Source: Halothiobacillaceae bacterium (GTDB taxonomy: Bacteria > Pseudomonadota > Gammaproteobacteria > Halothiobacillales > Halothiobacillaceae). Taken from it: DNA of 48,995 nucleotides. This document shows, one piece after another, positions 17,235 through 24,717 of the stretch. The stretch's first letter is position 1. Each line of letters begins with the position of its first letter. Location: assembly GCA_016938615.1 (NCBI GenBank), contig JAFGUH010000132.1:1-48995 (forward strand), in the 5' to 3' direction. Below the pieces are notes generated by a model. The model made no database searches. It worked only from the letters and a program-made list of their open reading frames with translations, and had not been told where the DNA came from. Position numbers and translations under genes: made by a program.

Positions 17235-18194
17235 TCAGCGCAGACGGAAGCGCATGGGCACGATCACCTCGCCCGCAACCGGCTGGCCGTTTCGCTGCGC
17301 CGGCGTGAACCGCCACTCCTCGATGACGTCAAGCGCGGCCTGGTCGAGGCGATCGTGACCGCTGGACGCCTCGATCGCCCATTCGACCGGCCGGCCCTCG
17401 GCATCCACCATCACGCGCAAGCGCACGGTGCCCTCCTCCCCGATCCGCTGGGAGAGACGGGGATAGCGCGGTGCGGGGTTGTCGAGGTAACCCGCGGAAA
17501 AGCTAGGCTTGGTCACCGATGGCGAGGGCGGTGGTGCAGGCGCGTCCTTATCGGATTTATTCGAAGACGACGGGCTTGCCTGACTCGCCCCCGCAGGTGG
17601 CGACTCCTCAGGTGACGGTCGTGACGGCGGCTTCGGCTGCGGCTCTGGTTCTGGTTTCGGCTCGGGTTTTGGTTCCGGCTCTGGCTCGGGCTCTGGCTCG
17701 GGCTCTGGCTCGGGCTTGGGCTCCGGCTTTGGTTCCGGCTTTGGTTCCGGCTTTGGTTCCGGCTCGGGCTCGGGCTCCGGCTTTGGCTCCGGCTTTGGCT
17801 CCGGCTTTGGCTCCGGCTCGGGCTCGGGCTTGGGCTCCGGCTTTGGTTCCGGCTTGGGCTCGGGCTCGGGTTTTGGTTGGGGCTTCGGCTCGGGCTTGGA
17901 CACTGGCTCCGGGCTAGCCTTGGCCTCGAGCCTAGGCTCGCGCCGCGGTTCCGATGCAGGTGCCGGCGAAGTCGACGCCGTGCGGGTCTGCTTGCCCGGG
18001 TTGCCCGGCTCGTCTGCCGGGGCCGCTGACTCGCTCAAATCCACCCAATCGACGCGCAATGATTCCGAAGAGGTCGTCGGCACCGTCTTTTCCGCGGCCG
18101 TGCCGAGCCACCACAGCATCCCCAGATGCAGAAACAGGCTCGACACCAGCCCGACCAAGATCCACCGAACTACCTGACTGGGGAACCGCTGCAC
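17235..18194 (-). CDS. tonB: energy transducer TonB with very long Pro-Glu/Pro-Lys spacer
   Basis: 319 aa. A cytoplasmic stub is followed by one membrane helix (about 11-31, [16 protein letters not shown]). A spacer of about 48 X-Pro dipeptides (EP and KP, residues about 95-190) should span the periplasm. The C-terminal domain has [20 protein letters not shown] and [13 protein letters not shown], which bind receptor TonB boxes. GTG start; the first codons (M-Q-R-F-P) lie inside a sequence matching the end of the dispersed TIR repeat. It heads the iron-uptake operon. Confidence 0.93.
17625..17912. repeat. hexamer-based repeat array inside tonB
   Basis: About 290 bases made of imperfect GGCTCN/GGYTTN-type hexamers, encoding alternating EP and KP dipeptides on the minus strand. 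The opposite strand has a long open frame of Gly-Ser-Phe repeats that is only a by-product. Such arrays expand and contract by slippage, so spacer length may vary between strains. Confidence 0.8.
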
Positions 18195-18456: not shown

Positions 18457-19044
18457 TCAGCGCAACCCAGGTGCGTCGACGAACGACTGACATTCGGCGG
18501 GACTCATGTCTCGCGCGCAACGCTCGGCAAGATCAACGTTCTTGTCGAGGTAGTAACTGTAAAAGCCGGGCGCGGTGCCGGTGATCTCGCCAACCCGTTG
18601 GCCGTTGGGCGCGAAGAACAGCACGTAGGGAACCCCGCGCACCTCGAGGCGATCGGCCAACGCTTTCGGGCGACCTTCGTCGCCGTCCACGTCGACGAAG
18701 TTGCGACCGCCATCCACCTGCACCCGCCGGATGATCAGGCGCCCCTGGTAGTCCGGGTCAAGCCGCATGGGAATAAGGAATTCGTCGTCGATCTTCCGGC
18801 AGTAGCCGCAATAGCTCGCGTGAAAGAAAACCATCATCGGCTTGTCGTGCGCCTGCATCCAGGCAATGTCCGCGGGCAGATCGTTGAGATGATCGACGAA
18901 ACGCACCGTGTCGTAGACCGACGTCGACGTTTCCGCCGTCACCGGCACGCCCCAGAACAGAGTGGCCAATACAAGCAGGGCAACCCGGTGAGACGCCCTG
19001 CGGATGGTGGGGAAGGCTGATCGAATCATTTGTACTGTTGGCAT
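18457..19044 (-). CDS. periplasmic thioredoxin-fold protein (CGYC)
   Basis: About 195 aa. A hydrophobic signal segment (about residues 20-38, ending VTAET) is followed by a thioredoxin fold with active site SYCGYC, preceded by MVFFHA, and the cis-Pro motif GVPYVLFF. A second pair of cysteines near the C-terminus (ERCARDMSPAEC) is unusual. The layout resembles SoxW/TlpA-like thiol reductases working outside the cytoplasm. The ATG at 19044 has AAGGGA eight bases upstream; an in-frame GTG three bases earlier and an ATG at 19029 are alternatives. It belongs to the sulfur/redox cluster around the ECF sigma factor. Confidence 0.82.
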   Translation of the reverse strand: MPTVQMIRSAFPTIRRASHRVALLVLATLFWGVPVTAETSTSVYDTVRFVDHLNDLPADIAWMQAHDKPMMVFFHASYCGYCRKIDDEFLIPMRLDPDYQGRLIIRRVQVDGGRNFVDVDGDEGRPKALADRLEVRGVPYVLFFAPNGQRVGEITGTAPGFYSYYLDKNVDLAERCARDMSPAECQSFVDAPGLR

Positions 19045-19135
19045 CACTCAGTCCCTTCGACTTGTTGACCGCCGGGATGCATGCCCGGTGGTGTGGAAAA
19101 CTAATGTGGCCGAGGCGCGGGATCCTTAAAGAAAG

Positions 19136-19410: not shown

Positions 19411-19902
19411 TCAGTACATGGGGTTGACGGCCCAGCCCTCGTTGGCAAGCCAGGCCACCTCGAGGAAACCGGAGGGGACGATGTCCTTCTCTTCGACCCC
19501 GTAGAGCGATTGCCAATTGAGATCCAACGCCCGCATGGTGTTGTTGCAGACCTCGAACTCGACGCCTTCGCCACGCAGGTAGTCGATCGAGGCGGCCAGC
19601 TTGTCGCTCGGGTCGACCAGCATCCGCAGGCCCGGACCGTAGAGCTCGACCTTGACTCGAGTCTCCCCTTCCCAATCGGCCGCGCCTCGAATGGCGTTGC
19701 CGATATTACGTAGGCGGAAGGTCCAGACCCATTCGTCGTCCGTAGCGATCGGCACGACCATGCGTACCTCGCCATAAGCGGGGTGCTCGATATTGGGCTC
19801 GACGTATTCGGCCCGAGCCTGGCTGCTGATGGCGGTTGCCCCAAGGGCGGCCGCGACGGCGATGGCCGTGAACGTCCGGCGCGTTGTGCTGTTGGTGTTC
19901 AT
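19411..19902 (-). CDS. exported DsrE-like protein
   Basis: 163 aa. The N-terminus TTRRTFTAIAV followed by a hydrophobic run and SSQARA looks like a Tat or Sec signal peptide. The mature part resembles DsrE/DsrF-like proteins: a strand of hydrophobic residues, a helix (LAASIDYLRGEGVEF), then EVCNNTMRALDL, with the single conserved cysteine of the family. DsrE-type proteins bind and transfer sulfur on this cysteine; here the site would be periplasmic. GAGGA lies seven bases before the ATG. It is paralogous in layout to 24193-24717. The candidate sigma promoter at 20009-20040 lies about 107 bases upstream. Confidence 0.75.
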   Translation of the reverse strand: MNTNSTTRRTFTAIAVAAALGATAISSQARAEYVEPNIEHPAYGEVRMVVPIATDDEWVWTFRLRNIGNAIRGAADWEGETRVKVELYGPGLRMLVDPSDKLAASIDYLRGEGVEFEVCNNTMRALDLNWQSLYGVEEKDIVPSGFLEVAWLANEGWAVNPMY

Positions 19903-20065: not shown

Positions 20066-20749
20066 TCAATAGGCCAGGCTGTCGAGATCGATGCTCTCGA
20101 AGTTGTGGTCGGTGACTTCGACGTTGTCCTGGATATTCCAGAGGTTGAAGGTCGGCACGGACCACAATCCGACCAGGAACAGGACAACGAAAATCGCCTG
20201 CCACGGCCGGACTCGCTGGATCGGCTCGACCCGCTTGATCGAACAGGCACCGCCGGGGCAGAGCTGGGGCTTCTGGCCGGTCACCAGGTTGTAGGCAAGG
20301 CACCCGAGGCAGATGCCGAACGCGGCCTCGAACACGAGGAAGAGCAGGCAGGCGCTGCAGCCGATCAGGTTGAGCAGGCCGGTGTTGGCCTGGATGAACA
20401 CCACCCAGATCATGAACAGGGCGATGCCCAGACCGATGCCCCAGGCGATGCGTTTCTGCGGTGCGCCGACGTACTCGACCTCCTAGTTTCGCGTGATGAG
20501 GCGTCCGAGAATCATGAAGGGGGCGAACTGCGGATTGACCAATACCCGGATGCCGAACTCGACGGCAAAGGCCAGGATCAGCAAGCGCTCCCACATGAAG
20601 TTGCCGGTCAGATAGCCCTGAGCGAATGCGAGGCCGGCGAACAGGGCGAGAAAGCCGGCCGCGGCGCGTGCTTCGCGCTCGTTGATGACACGCACGGGAT
20701 AGTCGTCGACCACCTCGCCGAAATGAAAGATGCGTTTTAGATCAAACAT
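20066..20749 (-). pseudogene. DUF4395 membrane protein interrupted by an in-frame amber codon
   Basis: Two pieces in the same frame, 20483-20749 and 20066-20482, are separated by a single TAG at 20483-20485. Joined they give a 227-codon protein of the DUF4395 type: a start with EREARAAAGFLAL, helices, the family motif EYVGAPQKRIAWG straight after the stop, further helices with cysteines (GCSACLLF, GICLGCLAYN) and CPGGACSIK near the end. Homologues, as I recall them, usually have Gln after RN, so a CAG to TAG change is likely. It may be a true nonsense mutation, suppressed readthrough or a sequence error. GGAAGA precedes the ATG. It is 24 bases after the preceding gene and probably in the same operon. 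Confidence 0.75.
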
Positions 20750-20773: not shown

Positions 20774-21493
20774 TTACGGGGATACAGGCGTGCCGCGGCT
20801 GGCCGCCGAAAGCCGCTCCTGCAGGTCGCGCAGCCAGCCACCCACGTCGATGGGAATCACGCCGGTCACCTCCAGCCGCTCGTCCTCGAAGACGTTCTCG
20901 CCGACATGGCCGTCGACCCACGCGTCCAGGCACTCGTCCCGGTGGATCAGCAGCCGCTCGAAGTGCGGCCGGAAGAGGATCGGCATGGCGGTGATCCAGC
21001 GGTTCACCGGCCAGGAAGGCACGGCATGATCGACGACGAACCGATCCAGCAGGGCAATCGTCTTGTCCGCCGGTAGCCAGTGCTCGTCGGTGACCCAGCG
21101 ATTGGTGGCGAACAGGGCGAGCGGCAGCCCGTGGGCACTCATGCTGATCGCCCCGACATGGACGGTGATCGGCTTGCCGCTCTCGGAATCGTGGTCCTGG
21201 ACGAAGCAGTGGAAATGACCGTGCTCGTGGCCTTCGCGGTGGGAGTGGTAGTAGTAGAGCGCACCGGAATCAGCGTCCTTCACGTCGTTCTCCGGGTAAT
21301 GGCTCCAGGTTTCCGGCTCCTCGGCAGCGTCGCGGAGGATCTCCGTGACCAGATTGGTCCCGCCTCGATGCAGCACGCGGTGGCATTCATGCACCTCCCG
21401 GGCGGCCACCAACATGCGCTGGAGCTGCTCGAAAGGCAGACCGTCCAGTGATGGCGCGGCGAGGACAGCGGGATCGACCGGCTTAGTGGACAT
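20774..21493 (-). CDS. His-rich protein of unknown function (probably DUF6969 family)
   Basis: 239 aa, soluble, without signal peptide. The most distinctive part is around residues 85-100, where YYYHSHREGHEHGHFHCF packs many histidines and could bind metal. Two other regions are conserved-looking: ECHRVLHRGG and the C-terminal helix pair. I associate this pattern with DUF6969 proteins, without certainty. The start overlaps the HD-GYP stop by 11 bases, so the two are translationally coupled, and DUF4395 follows 24 bases later. Confidence 0.6.
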   Translation of the reverse strand: MSTKPVDPAVLAAPSLDGLPFEQLQRMLVAAREVHECHRVLHRGGTNLVTEILRDAAEEPETWSHYPENDVKDADSGALYYYHSHREGHEHGHFHCFVQDHDSESGKPITVHVGAISMSAHGLPLALFATNRWVTDEHWLPADKTIALLDRFVVDHAVPSWPVNRWITAMPILFRPHFERLLIHRDECLDAWVDGHVGENVFEDERLEVTGVIPIDVGGWLRDLQERLSAASRGTPVSP

Positions 21494-22352
21494 GGGGAAG
21501 CATCCTCTCGGCCAAGACGTGAATCAGCGCCCGGTCGGCTCGCGGTTGCAGGGCGTCCGCCGTTGCCATCCGCCCGGTCGGCAGGATCTCGCCGTCGCGC
21601 TCATCGAGTTCGGCGCCGCAGATCCGGCACGGCGGGACCGATTCGGCCGGGTCGGTCGGCCGGGCCAGCGGGCCGTGGCACATCGGGCAGACCTCCAGCG
21701 GAATACCATCGGCGCTGTGGCCGATGACATGCTCGATCTCGCGAGACGGGACGGCATCGAGCAGTATCGAGGCCCAATGCGGATCGAACTGGCTGCCCTG
21801 CCCGTCGGCAACGATGGCGAGTGCGGTTTGCGAATCCATGCCCTTGCGGTAGGAGCGGTCGCTCGTCATCGCATCGAAGGCATCGGCCAGGCCGATCACG
21901 GCCGCCGTCTGCGGGATTGCCTCCCCGGCGAGGCCATCGGGATAACCACGACCGTCTGGCCGTTCGTGGTGGGAGCGCACGGCGTCGTGAACCAGCGCAC
22001 CCAGCGGCTGCATGTCGGTCAGGTGGGCACCGACGCCGGGGTGGGTTTTCATGATCGCGAACTGTTCATCACTGAGCCGGGAGGTGCCGGTCAGGATCGA
22101 GTCGGGGATCGCGATCTTTCCCAGGTCGTGCACGAATCCGCCGAGTTCGCACAGCGCCTGGTCGCGAGGTGACAGCCCGCCGTATTCGGCAAGCAGTCGG
22201 GAAAAGCGCGAGACCCGCCACATGTGCCCCGCGGTATAGGGGTCACGGGCCTCGACGAGCATGGTCAGGTTCATCAGCGATACCAGACCCTGTCGCGCCG
22301 CATCGGCGGCGTTATGGCCGGTCTTTTTCGATGATTTCATCCACTGAAACAT
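21483..22352 (-). CDS. HD-GYP phosphohydrolase with C-terminal zinc ribbon
   Basis: 289 aa. The HD-GYP domain (about residues 20-200) has the metal-binding HD in GFVHDLGKIAIPDS and the signature HHERPDGRGYPDGL, both intact, so c-di-GMP hydrolysis is plausible. After this, CPMCHGPLARP and PPCRICGAEL form two CxxC pairs, a zinc-ribbon or rubredoxin-like knuckle rarely seen on HD-GYP proteins. GGAG lies about eight bases before the ATG at 22352. The longer upstream frame is antisense-like repeat sequence from the cytochrome gene and is rejected. It is 71 bases after the Cys-repeat cytochrome and overlaps the next gene. Confidence 0.85.
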   Translation of the reverse strand: MFQWMKSSKKTGHNAADAARQGLVSLMNLTMLVEARDPYTAGHMWRVSRFSRLLAEYGGLSPRDQALCELGGFVHDLGKIAIPDSILTGTSRLSDEQFAIMKTHPGVGAHLTDMQPLGALVHDAVRSHHERPDGRGYPDGLAGEAIPQTAAVIGLADAFDAMTSDRSYRKGMDSQTALAIVADGQGSQFDPHWASILLDAVPSREIEHVIGHSADGIPLEVCPMCHGPLARPTDPAESVPPCRICGAELDERDGEILPTGRMATADALQPRADRALIHVLAERMLPHVH

Positions 22353-22423: not shown

Positions 22424-23134
22424 TTAGTGAGGCGCGCAGGGCGAGGCTTTCGGGGCGCAACCGCCTTTGGGAGCGCATCCGCCTTTCGGGGCGCAACCAC
22501 CCTTCGGCGCGCAGGCCCCTTTCGGTGCACAAGCGCCCTTGGGCGCACAGCCACCACCGCGATTCTGACCTGGCTTGAAGGTTTCCTGCTGGAGCTTGGT
22601 ATACGCCGTCAGCGCGGCGAGCTCCTTGGAATCCCAGGGCAGCGGCTCGCCGGCCATCGGCGAGACCAGGCAGAACTGAACGATCTCGTCGAGATGGATC
22701 TCCTTTATGCCGGCCTGATCGTCGGCCATCTTCACGTAGTGCGGATACGGCTGGGCGAAGGTATCGGCGTAGGAGGCGTGATCCGCGTGGCAGGTGTTGC
22801 AGGACAGGCCGTTGCTGCCAAGGCTGGTCTCACTGAACAGCCGCTCGCCCAGGGCGACGAGTTCCGCCTGCGGGGCGTCGTCGTAGAGCTCGGTGCCTTG
22901 CGGGCGGGTCACTTGCGCCGGCGAGACCATCGGCCCGCAACCACCCTTGGCCGCGGGGCCACAGCCACCTTTCGCCGCCGGGCCACAGGCGCCCGCCGAC
23001 ATGCGCGGCTTGCAGCCCGACCGCGGGGCACAACCGGCGGCCAGCAGGCCGCCCGAGAAGGCAATCGCCGCCGAGCTGGCCGCCGCCAGGGCAAAACGAT
23101 TGAAAGAATGCGTGCGTGTGTTGGTCGTCTTCAT
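22424..23134 (-). CDS. exported c-type cytochrome with Cys-rich repeat arrays
   Basis: 236 aa. A signal peptide (about 1-33) ends at LLAAGC, which may be a lipobox. The mature N-terminus has GACGPAAKGGCGPAAKGGCG, a short Cys-Gly-Pro repeat. A single haem-c site CNTCH lies near the centre, followed by a cytochrome-like helical domain in which a Met of LVSPMAGEPLPW may be the sixth ligand. The C-terminus is six repeats of the form G-(G/A)-C-A-P-K ending CAPH. With the N-terminal array this gives about twelve cysteines outside the haem site. Cys arrays of this kind suggest metal binding or a thiol redox role; this is inference. GAGGAG precedes the ATG. It heads a minus-strand operon with HD-GYP, and is divergent from the sigma factor. 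Confidence 0.8.
   Translation of the reverse strand: MKTTNTRTHSFNRFALAAASSAAIAFSGGLLAAGCAPRSGCKPRMSAGACGPAAKGGCGPAAKGGCGPMVSPAQVTRPQGTELYDDAPQAELVALGERLFSETSLGSNGLSCNTCHADHASYADTFAQPYPHYVKMADDQAGIKEIHLDEIVQFCLVSPMAGEPLPWDSKELAALTAYTKLQQETFKPGQNRGGGCAPKGACAPKGACAPKGGCAPKGGCAPKGGCAPKASPCAPH
22455..22562. repeat. six 18-bp tandem repeats in the cytochrome gene
   Basis: Six consecutive 18-bp units, each beginning GCGCA or GCACA and ending near a CTTTCGG or CTTGGG-type block on the plus strand, encode the C-terminal Cys-Ala-Pro-Lys array. Third-base differences between units show that the array is not a fresh duplication. Confidence 0.8.
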
Positions 23135-23346: not shown

Positions 23347-23922
23347 GTGCTGACGGAAAAGGACATCACCCCGTATCTCGAAGAGCGCAGAGGCGACCTC
23401 TTGCGCTTTGCCCAGTTGCAACTCGGGGAGCGTCAGCGGGCCGAGGACGTCGTCCAGGAAACCCTGATGGCGGCCCTGAACGGCGGGAAGGGCTTCGAGC
23501 GCCGCAGCCAGGTCAAGTCCTGGGTCTTCGGCATCCTGAAACACAAGATCATCGACGAGATCCGACGCTCCGACCGGGAGCGGAGGCTGGGCGATATCGC
23601 CCCCGAGGGTGACGAGGTGCTGGTCGAGCAATTGTTCAACCGCCACGGCTTCTGGCGGGGCGAGACCCGGCCCAGTCGCTGGGTCGACCCGGACGAATCG
23701 CTGGAAAACCGTCAGTTCTGGCAGATCTTCGAGGCCTGCCTGACGCACCTGCCGGACCGAACGGCCCGGGTGTTCATGATGCGCGAGATCCTGGAACTGG
23801 AGACCAAGGAGATCTGCGCCAACCTCGGCATATCGACCAGCAACTGCTGGGTGATCCTGCACCGGGCCCGTCTGGGGCTGCGGCACTGCCTGAGCCGGGA
23901 ATGGTTCGAGGAGGAACGATGA
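23347..23922 (+). CDS. ECF-type RNA polymerase sigma factor
   Basis: 191 aa. Sigma region 2 (about residues 15-85) has AEDVVQETLMAAL and QVKSWVFGILKHKIIDEIRR. Region 4 (about 130-185) has LPDRTARVFMMREILELETKEICANLGISTSNCWVILHRAR, including the helix-turn-helix. There is no region 1 or 3, so it is an extracytoplasmic-function type, and resembles the TIGR02943 group. GTG start with GGGAG upstream. It overlaps the zinc-finger anti-sigma gene, which is a standard arrangement. A cysteine in the region-4 helix (SNCWVI) is notable. Confidence 0.9.
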   Translation: MLTEKDITPYLEERRGDLLRFAQLQLGERQRAEDVVQETLMAALNGGKGFERRSQVKSWVFGILKHKIIDEIRRSDRERRLGDIAPEGDEVLVEQLFNRHGFWRGETRPSRWVDPDESLENRQFWQIFEACLTHLPDRTARVFMMREILELETKEICANLGISTSNCWVILHRARLGLRHCLSREWFEEER

Positions 23923-24134
23923 TGAATTGCAAGCACGCCACCCGACTGCTCTCCGAATCCCTGGAACGTCGCCTCGGCCCGGTGGAGAAAGGAATGCTGC
24001 GCCTGCACACCTCCATGTGCAGTGGCTGCCGGCAATTCGGCGTCCAGACCCGGGAACTGCGACAAATCTGCCGCGCCTACACCCCCATGGAGGAGGCGGA
24101 GGACGACCGTGACGAGGACCGCCAAGGCCGTTGA
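23919..24134 (+). CDS. zf-HC2 anti-sigma factor (short, soluble)
   Basis: 71 aa. The zinc-binding anti-sigma motif is present, with C-K-H near the start and C-S-G-C (MCSGCRQF) about 36 residues later. Such proteins hold the sigma factor and release it when zinc or thiols are oxidised or when a signal arrives. No membrane segment follows, so it acts in the cytoplasm. The ATG overlaps the sigma stop (ATGA), with GAGGAGGA upstream, so the pair is co-translated. An in-frame start at 23901 is unlikely. Confidence 0.82.
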   Translation: MMNCKHATRLLSESLERRLGPVEKGMLRLHTSMCSGCRQFGVQTRELRQICRAYTPMEEAEDDRDEDRQGR

Positions 24135-24192: not shown

Positions 24193-24717
24193 TCACTCCG
24201 GCTTGAGCTGCGGCTGGTCGAGATACCGCACGTCGCGCACCGAATACGGCAGCGGGTTGATGTACTCATAGCCCTGGTGCTGCAGGTAGGCGATCTCGGG
24301 GAAACCGGCCGGCACGACGGTGACAAACCCGTGCATGTCGTCGGGCTCGAAGCCCGCGGCGGTCAGCGCATTGTTGCACATGCGGAACTCCACGCCCGAA
24401 TCGGCCAGCTCGGCCATCTTGTCGACGATGCCCTGGTACTTCATGTAGTTCTCCTTGGCGAAGGCACGAAGCTCCGGGCCATGCGTCACGACAATCATGT
24501 CGCCCTTGAGCGGCTTGGCCGTGTTCTTGACGAACGAATACAGGATGTTGAGCTTGTTCGGGTCCTCGTAGTTGACGTCAAAGACTGCGTCGATCTCCGG
24601 GTACTCGTGCATGTCGGTCGTGGCCGTGCCATACGGGGAGAACTCCTCGGCCAGGGCCAGCGGGGTTGTCACCGCCACGGCGGTGGCCAGCGACAGGCTC
24701 GTGATCAGTTTTTTCAT
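24193..24717 (-). CDS. exported DsrE-like protein, second paralogue
   Basis: 174 aa. A classic Sec signal (MKKLITSLSLATAVAV up to ALA) precedes a DsrE-like fold: NILYSFVKNT, DMIVVTHGPELRAF, a helix (KYQGIVDKMAELADSG) and FRMCNNAL with the single conserved cysteine. It resembles 19411-19902 in layout, including the CNN motif and the end YxxINPLPYS versus WAVNPMY. A periplasmic sulfur-carrier role is inferred from the family. GGAGATGAG leads directly to the ATG. It ends convergent to the anti-sigma gene. Confidence 0.8.
   Translation of the reverse strand: MKKLITSLSLATAVAVTTPLALAEEFSPYGTATTDMHEYPEIDAVFDVNYEDPNKLNILYSFVKNTAKPLKGDMIVVTHGPELRAFAKENYMKYQGIVDKMAELADSGVEFRMCNNALTAAGFEPDDMHGFVTVVPAGFPEIAYLQHQGYEYINPLPYSVRDVRYLDQPQLKPE

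Follow-up and report, generated by a model that had tools for sequence, protein, structure and literature searches.

The window, by which we mean the whole 48,995-nucleotide stretch of DNA analysed here (contig C5 of its genome), comes from a Halothiobacillaceae bacterium that is probably a sulfur oxidiser. It encodes a secreted haem protein with a cysteine array on either side of the haem domain, referred to below as the array cytochrome. The protein, its parts and the neighbouring genes are as follows.

22424..23134, minus strand: array-cytochrome gene, 236 residues with a Sec signal peptide (ATG at 23134, stop at 22424, AGGAG ribosome site before the ATG)
22934..23032, minus strand: N-terminal Cys array, residues 35–67, five Cys (GCAPR/GCKPR/ACGPAAK/GCGPAAK/GCGP)
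22565..22912, minus strand: SoxA/TsdA-type mono-haem cytochrome c domain, residues 75–190 (PF21342, E 1.3e-8; profile match to SoxA 1h31, E 2.5e-7; predicted model)
22787..22801, minus strand: CNTCH haem-binding motif, residues 112–116 (CxxCH invariant in 31/31 relatives aligned)
22670..22672, minus strand: Cys155, present in all 31 aligned proteins, at the alignment position of the SoxA/TsdA Cys ligand of the haem iron
22427..22555, minus strand: C-terminal Cys array, residues 194–236, six G(G/A)CAPK units, then CAPH as the last motif
21483..22352, minus strand: HD-GYP protein, its gene lying between those for the cytochrome and DUF6969 (start ATG 22352; found in 8 array-cytochrome loci)
20774..21493, minus strand: DUF6969 gene (PF22308, E 4.9e-68), no signal peptide seen, His-rich motif YYYHSHR...EHGHFHCF
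19411..19890, minus strand: second secreted DsrE-like protein (PF02635, E 4.5e-4, a weak match just under the Pfam cut-off)
23347..23922, plus strand: divergent ECF sigma factor, TIGR02943 family (E 8.7e-75; found in 9 array-cytochrome loci)
23922..24134, plus strand: zf-HC2 anti-sigma factor, from family match and HxxxCxxC motif
24193..24717, minus strand: secreted DsrE-like protein, a putative periplasmic sulfur transferase (PF02635, E 6.3e-9)

The array cytochrome contains 15 Cys, of which two belong to the haem motif, one (Cys155) to the core and twelve to the arrays. The five of the N-terminal array are at residues 35, 41, 50, 58 and 66, after the signal peptide; of the seven at the C-terminus, six lie in the repeat units between residues 196 and 226, and the last is that of CAPH, at 233. 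The 18-bp array encoding the C-terminal repeats was also detected independently by TRF. CAPK occurs six times, and not one of 2000 shuffles of the protein gave even two. The six 18-bp units show 54 synonymous as against 8 non-synonymous codon-pair differences, from which we conclude that the peptide motif has been maintained and that there has been no recent slippage; this suggests that the repeat peptide is under selection.

An earlier, sequence-only reading of this DNA described a CNTCH haem site between an N-terminal array and six C-terminal 18-bp repeats, which is correct for 22424–23134 on the minus strand. Its estimate of about twelve non-haem Cys in repeats agrees with the exact count of twelve, Cys155 being a thirteenth non-haem Cys that it missed. 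The chimera of haem c and Cys arrays that it pointed out is thus real, and is conserved; the kinship to SoxA and the link to DUF6969 went unnoticed.

Two further genes in the window may be recorded here. A DUF4395 membrane protein gene (20066–20749, minus strand) is broken by one in-frame stop, which follows codon 88 and has Pfam matches on either side of it; the gene is either decayed, affected by a sequencing error, or genuinely split. The TonB-like protein encoded at 17235–18194 (minus strand) contains a PEPKPEP repeat of great length. A role in anti-phage defence was considered and rejected, PADLOC giving no match.

The haem core

By sequence and predicted fold, the core of the array cytochrome is a SoxA/TsdA-type cytochrome. 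It scores 35.2 bits against the Pfam family PF21342 (SoxA-TsdA cytochrome c), for which the cut-off is 27, and a profile of the 31 relatives described below has SoxA of Rhodovulum (1h31) as its best match in the PDB. The predicted model of the core has a pLDDT of 93. Its best Foldseek matches are TsdA (E 5e-4, TMq 0.56), and VIA-align gives a best Z of 9.1 to SoxA (1h31_A, 94 residues aligned, 3.3 Å) and a Z of 8.0 to TsdA (4wqc). From its aligned position Cys155 is a candidate distal haem ligand, since the corresponding Cys of SoxA and TsdA ligates the haem iron (PMC4423706). Enzymes of the SoxA family join thiosulfate to a thiolate via this haem Cys ligand: in TsdA it holds an S-thiosulfonate intermediate, and SoxA is inferred to couple thiosulfate to the carrier Cys of SoxYZ in a similar way (PMC4423706).

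The residues around the ligand position are different from those of TsdA. At the position of Arg119 (Cys-4) all 31 array cytochromes have Met or Ile, and at that of Ser127 (Cys+4) 30 of the 31 have Pro; Met and Pro are found together in 30/31. TsdA-type proteins in related genomes keep the Arg and Ser, and the array-less sister cytochromes have the same Met/Pro pair as the array cytochromes. Moreover, the family profile aligns better with the N-terminal haem domain of SoxA than with the C-terminal one. Thiosulfate chemistry is therefore doubtful. The SoxA equivalog TIGR04484 is also not reached (29.2 bits, against a cut-off of 110), and together with the Met/Pro positions this marks the protein as a member of the fold family that is not necessarily a thiosulfate enzyme.

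Relatives and the link to DUF6969

When the window protein alone was used as query, a scan of the genome collection gave no relatives. A scan of GTDB contigs with a three-row alignment gave 30 loci, making 31 array cytochromes with that of the window. A database search for CAPK repeats beside CxxCH had been advised in the sequence-only reading. The 30 loci encode the same core, nearly always with arrays flanking it. They span Betaproteobacteria to Gemmatimonadota, the hosts being Halothiobacillaceae, Comamonadaceae, Rhodocyclales, Aromatoleum, Denitromonas, Nitrosomonas, Magnetococcales, Mariprofundaceae, Tectomicrobia and Gemmatimonadota.

Arrays of the (NPCAAK)n type enclose the haem domain in nearly all of the 31 proteins, their copy number differing widely between relatives. 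The exceptions are two from Mariprofundaceae with the N-terminal array only (L039 and L043) and one from Nitrosomonas with degenerate repeats (L040). About half of the loci also encode at least one secreted protein consisting of an array only, located by a motif scan in this GC-rich DNA. In the class sample, nine genomes form a clear array-cytochrome group (E <= 5e-25), separated by a gap from an array-less sister group. The nearest sisters are array-less mono-haem SoxA-like cytochromes with a M(I/V)NWC motif (L115, L120–L122), which may represent the ancestor of the array form. None of ten same-genus genomes tested has the array cytochrome; at least three of these ten have an array with DUF6969. 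A plasmid search gave one partial match, in Cupriavidus.

Nitrosomonas mobilis has two array cytochromes, the degenerate L040 and a second one (L062) with intact NPCAAK repeats, whose gene adjoins those for DUF6969 and an ECF sigma factor. Ten array-cytochrome loci (L022:4482-4967; also L020, L027, L031, L033–L037 and L041) share a family of small secreted proteins, VPCQF...YSCPLNTTPDYRL, that has a cupredoxin-like look and no match in Pfam.

The commonest neighbour of the array cytochromes is DUF6969, which is found at 19 of the 31 loci. It is present in 24 of the 31 distinct array-cytochrome genomes and not found in the other 7, as against 29 of 368 genomes of the class sample, or about 8% (Fisher p ~3e-18, in a test that ignores phylogeny). 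Within the class sample alone, it occurs in 4/9 array-cytochrome genomes and 26/360 others (p 0.003, phylogeny again ignored). A secreted or membrane-anchored Cys-array protein adjoins DUF6969 at 28 of 31 class-sample loci on unblinded inspection, with no array seen at L072, L073 and L093; a strict automatic rule finds a Cys array at 19/31 of these loci and at 0/20 control loci. The array motifs near DUF6969 vary, and include NPCAAK, NPCAPSARGG, SPCSL/SPCGL, KCGACK and CCGCCG. We propose to group these proteins as DUF6969-linked secreted Cys-array proteins; the window locus fits this grouping, its DUF6969 gene at 20774–21493 lying within a few genes of the array cytochrome. A second DUF6969 subfamily (L083–L094), mostly adjoining YeeE/YedE and rhodanese genes, is accompanied by small single-helix proteins in which GSAxGLAAIAVAIDHTRHxLPEP is followed by SPCSL/SPCGL repeats.

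Since no signal peptide could be seen by eye, DUF6969 is predicted to lie in the cytosol. Across 40 aligned members the common residues are Y82, H83, H85, E90, H91, G92, H93, H95, F97, H112, N131 and W133, a set that resembles a metal site. Searched by sequence against the PDB, DUF6969 gave nothing at E 10. At E 0.001 Foldseek matched its predicted model, with a pLDDT of 90, to nothing in the PDB, and the best VIA-align Z was 3.1, which is not meaningful and leaves a new fold unproven. No paper mentioning DUF6969 was found in the literature, and none of relevance on the array motifs NPCAAK, NPCAP, NPCSL or CAPKGGC. DUF6969 could conceivably be a metal-dependent enzyme of new fold, whose substrate in the cytosol would be the not yet exported Cys arrays or their sulfur cargo. 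In favour of this are the array that is almost always encoded alongside, the conservation of Y82, E90 and six His (83, 85, 91, 93, 95 and 112) in the 40 members, and the confident model without significant Foldseek match; its absence from 7 of the 31 array-cytochrome genomes counts against it, and we consider the assignment rather doubtful. If true, it would amount to a second, MNIO-independent route to modified or loaded Cys-array proteins, fused here to a haem domain.

Sulfur, metal and MNIO context

Among the families tested, YeeE/YedE and rhodanese are the commonest neighbours of the sister arrays. At 13 of the 31 class-sample DUF6969 loci, YeeE/YedE is on one side and rhodanese on the other, with the Cys array between them. 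The gene order in a complete same-genus genome (G010) is metallo-beta-lactamase-fold protein, YeeE/YedE, array, DUF6969, rhodanese. The window genome itself has a second DUF6969 copy (L057, contig C151) in the order array, DUF6969, rhodanese; the array, with GGNPCAPSAR repeats, is cut by the contig end, and the rhodanese downstream is secreted. YeeE/YedE is also found near nine of the array-cytochrome loci. YeeE-like SoxT proteins bring in sulfur for oxidation (PMC11582611).

SoxB is enriched in DUF6969 genomes (22/30 as against 126/339, p=1.5e-4, phylogeny ignored), whereas it is present in only 6/31 array-cytochrome genomes, below the class average of 148/369. The case for sulfur is therefore strong for the sister arrays and weaker for the cytochrome form. 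An accessory role in the Sox pathway was rejected on the same depletion of SoxB, the enrichment being confined to DUF6969 genomes. The suggestion in the sequence-only reading that the arrays carry sulfur or persulfide has gained support from the SoxA-family core, from YeeE/YedE and rhodanese beside the sister arrays, and from the two DsrE-like genes of the window, with the cargo itself being what we infer. Its suggestion of anchoring to minerals found no specific support.

The same reading remarked that no DUF692/MNIO gene is present, which is true of the window and false of the genome: a check elsewhere in the genome, which it advised, located a single MNIO (PF05114) match at C60:12719–13501. 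That locus (L001/L064) has its own small secreted acidic precursor with CGSGQCG, and follows a thioredoxin-fold gene similar to that at 18457–19047 of the window. MNIO is present in 7 of the 31 array-cytochrome genomes and absent from 24, isolate genomes included. Bufferin-type modification is thus not the rule, and MNIO is ruled out as a general partner by its genome-wide absence from the 24. A bufferin/MNIO gene pair adjoins the array cytochrome at two loci (L017 and L018), and a true MerA lies near the Aromatoleum loci (L024); the neighbour at L039 is only a generic FAD oxidoreductase. Neighbours of the MerA and MNIO kind are restricted to a few lineages. Copper chelation is known for bufferins, whose secreted precursors are rich in Cys, and long Cys precursors bearing signal peptides go together with MNIO enzymes (PMC12452194); this MNIO survey makes no mention of cytochromes or DUF6969.

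Proposed function and comparison with known systems

The array cytochromes and their sister arrays represent an undescribed kind of locus, encoding secreted Cys arrays (NPCAAK, NPCAPSARGG, SPCSL, KCGAC and similar), usually with DUF6969 and often with YeeE/YedE and rhodanese. The safe periplasmic movement of reactive sulfane sulfur or soft metals is an open problem, and SoxYZ, perhaps the best-studied periplasmic sulfur carrier, has a single carrier Cys. We tentatively hypothesise that the array cytochrome stores or passes on sulfane sulfur on the thiols of its periplasmic arrays and uses the Cys-ligated haem as their redox partner, and would put this a little below an even chance. The protein would be a periplasmic single-haem cytochrome of the SoxA family, with Cys-ligated haem and flexible tails bearing twelve regularly spaced Cys. 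Each array thiol would then be a site at which sulfane sulfur is carried or stored in the periplasm, much as if the single-Cys arm of SoxY had been multiplied; oxidation by the haem would load thiols or sulfur onto the array or release them from it, the electrons going on to other cytochromes. This is consistent with the PF21342 match, with SoxA as best PDB profile match, with the resemblance of the model to TsdA and SoxA, and with the invariant Cys155, as well as with YeeE/YedE and rhodanese at the sister arrays, the two DsrE-like genes and the enrichment of SoxB in DUF6969 genomes. It has to be set against the replacement of Arg119 and Ser127, the low count of SoxB in array-cytochrome genomes, the several array cytochromes near mercury or bufferin genes, and the incomplete link to DUF6969, which is missing in 7/31 genomes and overlaps in only 4/9 in the class sample, in co-occurrence tests that ignore shared ancestry.

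A possible though less probable function is that of a soft-metal store, with periplasmic arrays as ligands for Cu(I), Hg(II) or Ag(I) and a haem domain that shifts the metal/thiol redox state, so controlling loading and release. Short, regularly spaced Cys with Gly, Pro and Lys linkers would suit Cu(I), and the HxxxCxxC sigma/anti-sigma pair could sense metal or thiol stress. The copper chelation by bufferins, the bufferin/MNIO pair at two loci and MerA near the Aromatoleum loci point in the same direction, as does a weak resemblance of the core to MbnH/MauG-type haem proteins (Z 5.2 to 6e1c). Yet MerA and MNIO are neighbours in few lineages only, and it is YeeE/YedE and rhodanese that most often accompany the sister arrays. 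These two genes would be left unexplained if the array cytochrome were simply a redox buffer or electron relay against oxidative or nitrosative stress, its array Cys alternating between thiol and disulfide forms, the haem exchanging electrons with them and no cargo being stored, a function that we regard as unlikely. In its favour, electron exchange with disulfides would be possible for a His/Cys haem of low potential. The zf-HC2 anti-sigma factor, which we take to resemble thiol-sensing anti-sigma factors, also fits such a buffer, as do the multihaem c554-like proteins near 10 array-cytochrome loci and the thioredoxin-like and CcdA-like genes beside DUF6969 in L058, L059 and L060 (the last being the source of queries).

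Cytosolic MNIO modification of the arrays ahead of their export, as in bufferin-type RiPPs, is largely refuted as a general rule and very improbable here. The genome does have an MNIO gene, MNIO is adjacent at L017 and L018, and such enzymes are tied to long Cys precursors with signal peptides (PMC12452194), but the MNIO gene of this genome is on another contig with its own small precursor, and 24 of the 31 genomes have none. We give still less credence to the idea that an ordinary cytochrome carries the arrays as neutral tails of low complexity. It would accommodate the wide variation in copy number, the lack of a C-terminal array in L039 and L043, the degenerate repeats of L040 and the existence of array-less sisters. 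Against it are the presence of arrays around the core in nearly all 31 relatives, which belong to several phyla, the repeat units whose codons have drifted apart under a preserved peptide, and the secreted array-only proteins that about half of the loci encode next to the cytochrome.

On the sulfane-sulfur hypothesis, a SoxA-type haem domain with a dozen array thiols in the same protein, together with an array family tied to the strongly conserved DUF6969, would provide a new and directly testable route. The system would handle sulfur, or possibly metals, outside the cell membrane, and DUF6969 is present in about 8% of the class-sample genomes.

Compared with the SoxA/TsdA family (PF21342), the array cytochrome shares the predicted fold, CxxCH and, where the haem ligand is expected, an invariant Cys, but it has a single haem without SoxX or a second haem domain, carries two Cys arrays, and has Met/Pro at Arg119/Ser127. 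The similarity to the MbnH/MauG haem proteins of copper homeostasis is weak and limited to the first haem region (TIGR04039, E 1.6e-4); the score is far under the cut-off (20.9 as against 362.85 bits), and those proteins have two haems rather than one. With the carrier arm of SoxY(Z) it shares a flexible segment of small residues that would offer a sulfur-carrying Cys to a SoxA-family haem (PMC4423706), a likeness of working idea and not a claim of homology; each chain here has many Cys, in the same protein as the haem domain. The transport and rhodanese genes (PF04143, PF00581) flank DUF6969 sister arrays in the same genus and in other families, although they are not adjacent to the array cytochrome of the window; in a close relative (L015) YeeE/YedE is just upstream. 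Finally, the likeness to bufferins and other MNIO-modified proteins (PF05114; Buf_EGKCG, CxxxxC), which the sequence-only reading had raised, holds for the architecture only, a gene for a secreted Cys-motif protein lying beside one for a conserved, predicted cytosolic protein. The usual partner here is DUF6969 rather than MNIO, and the array motifs are NPCAAK and GCAPK rather than EGKCG.
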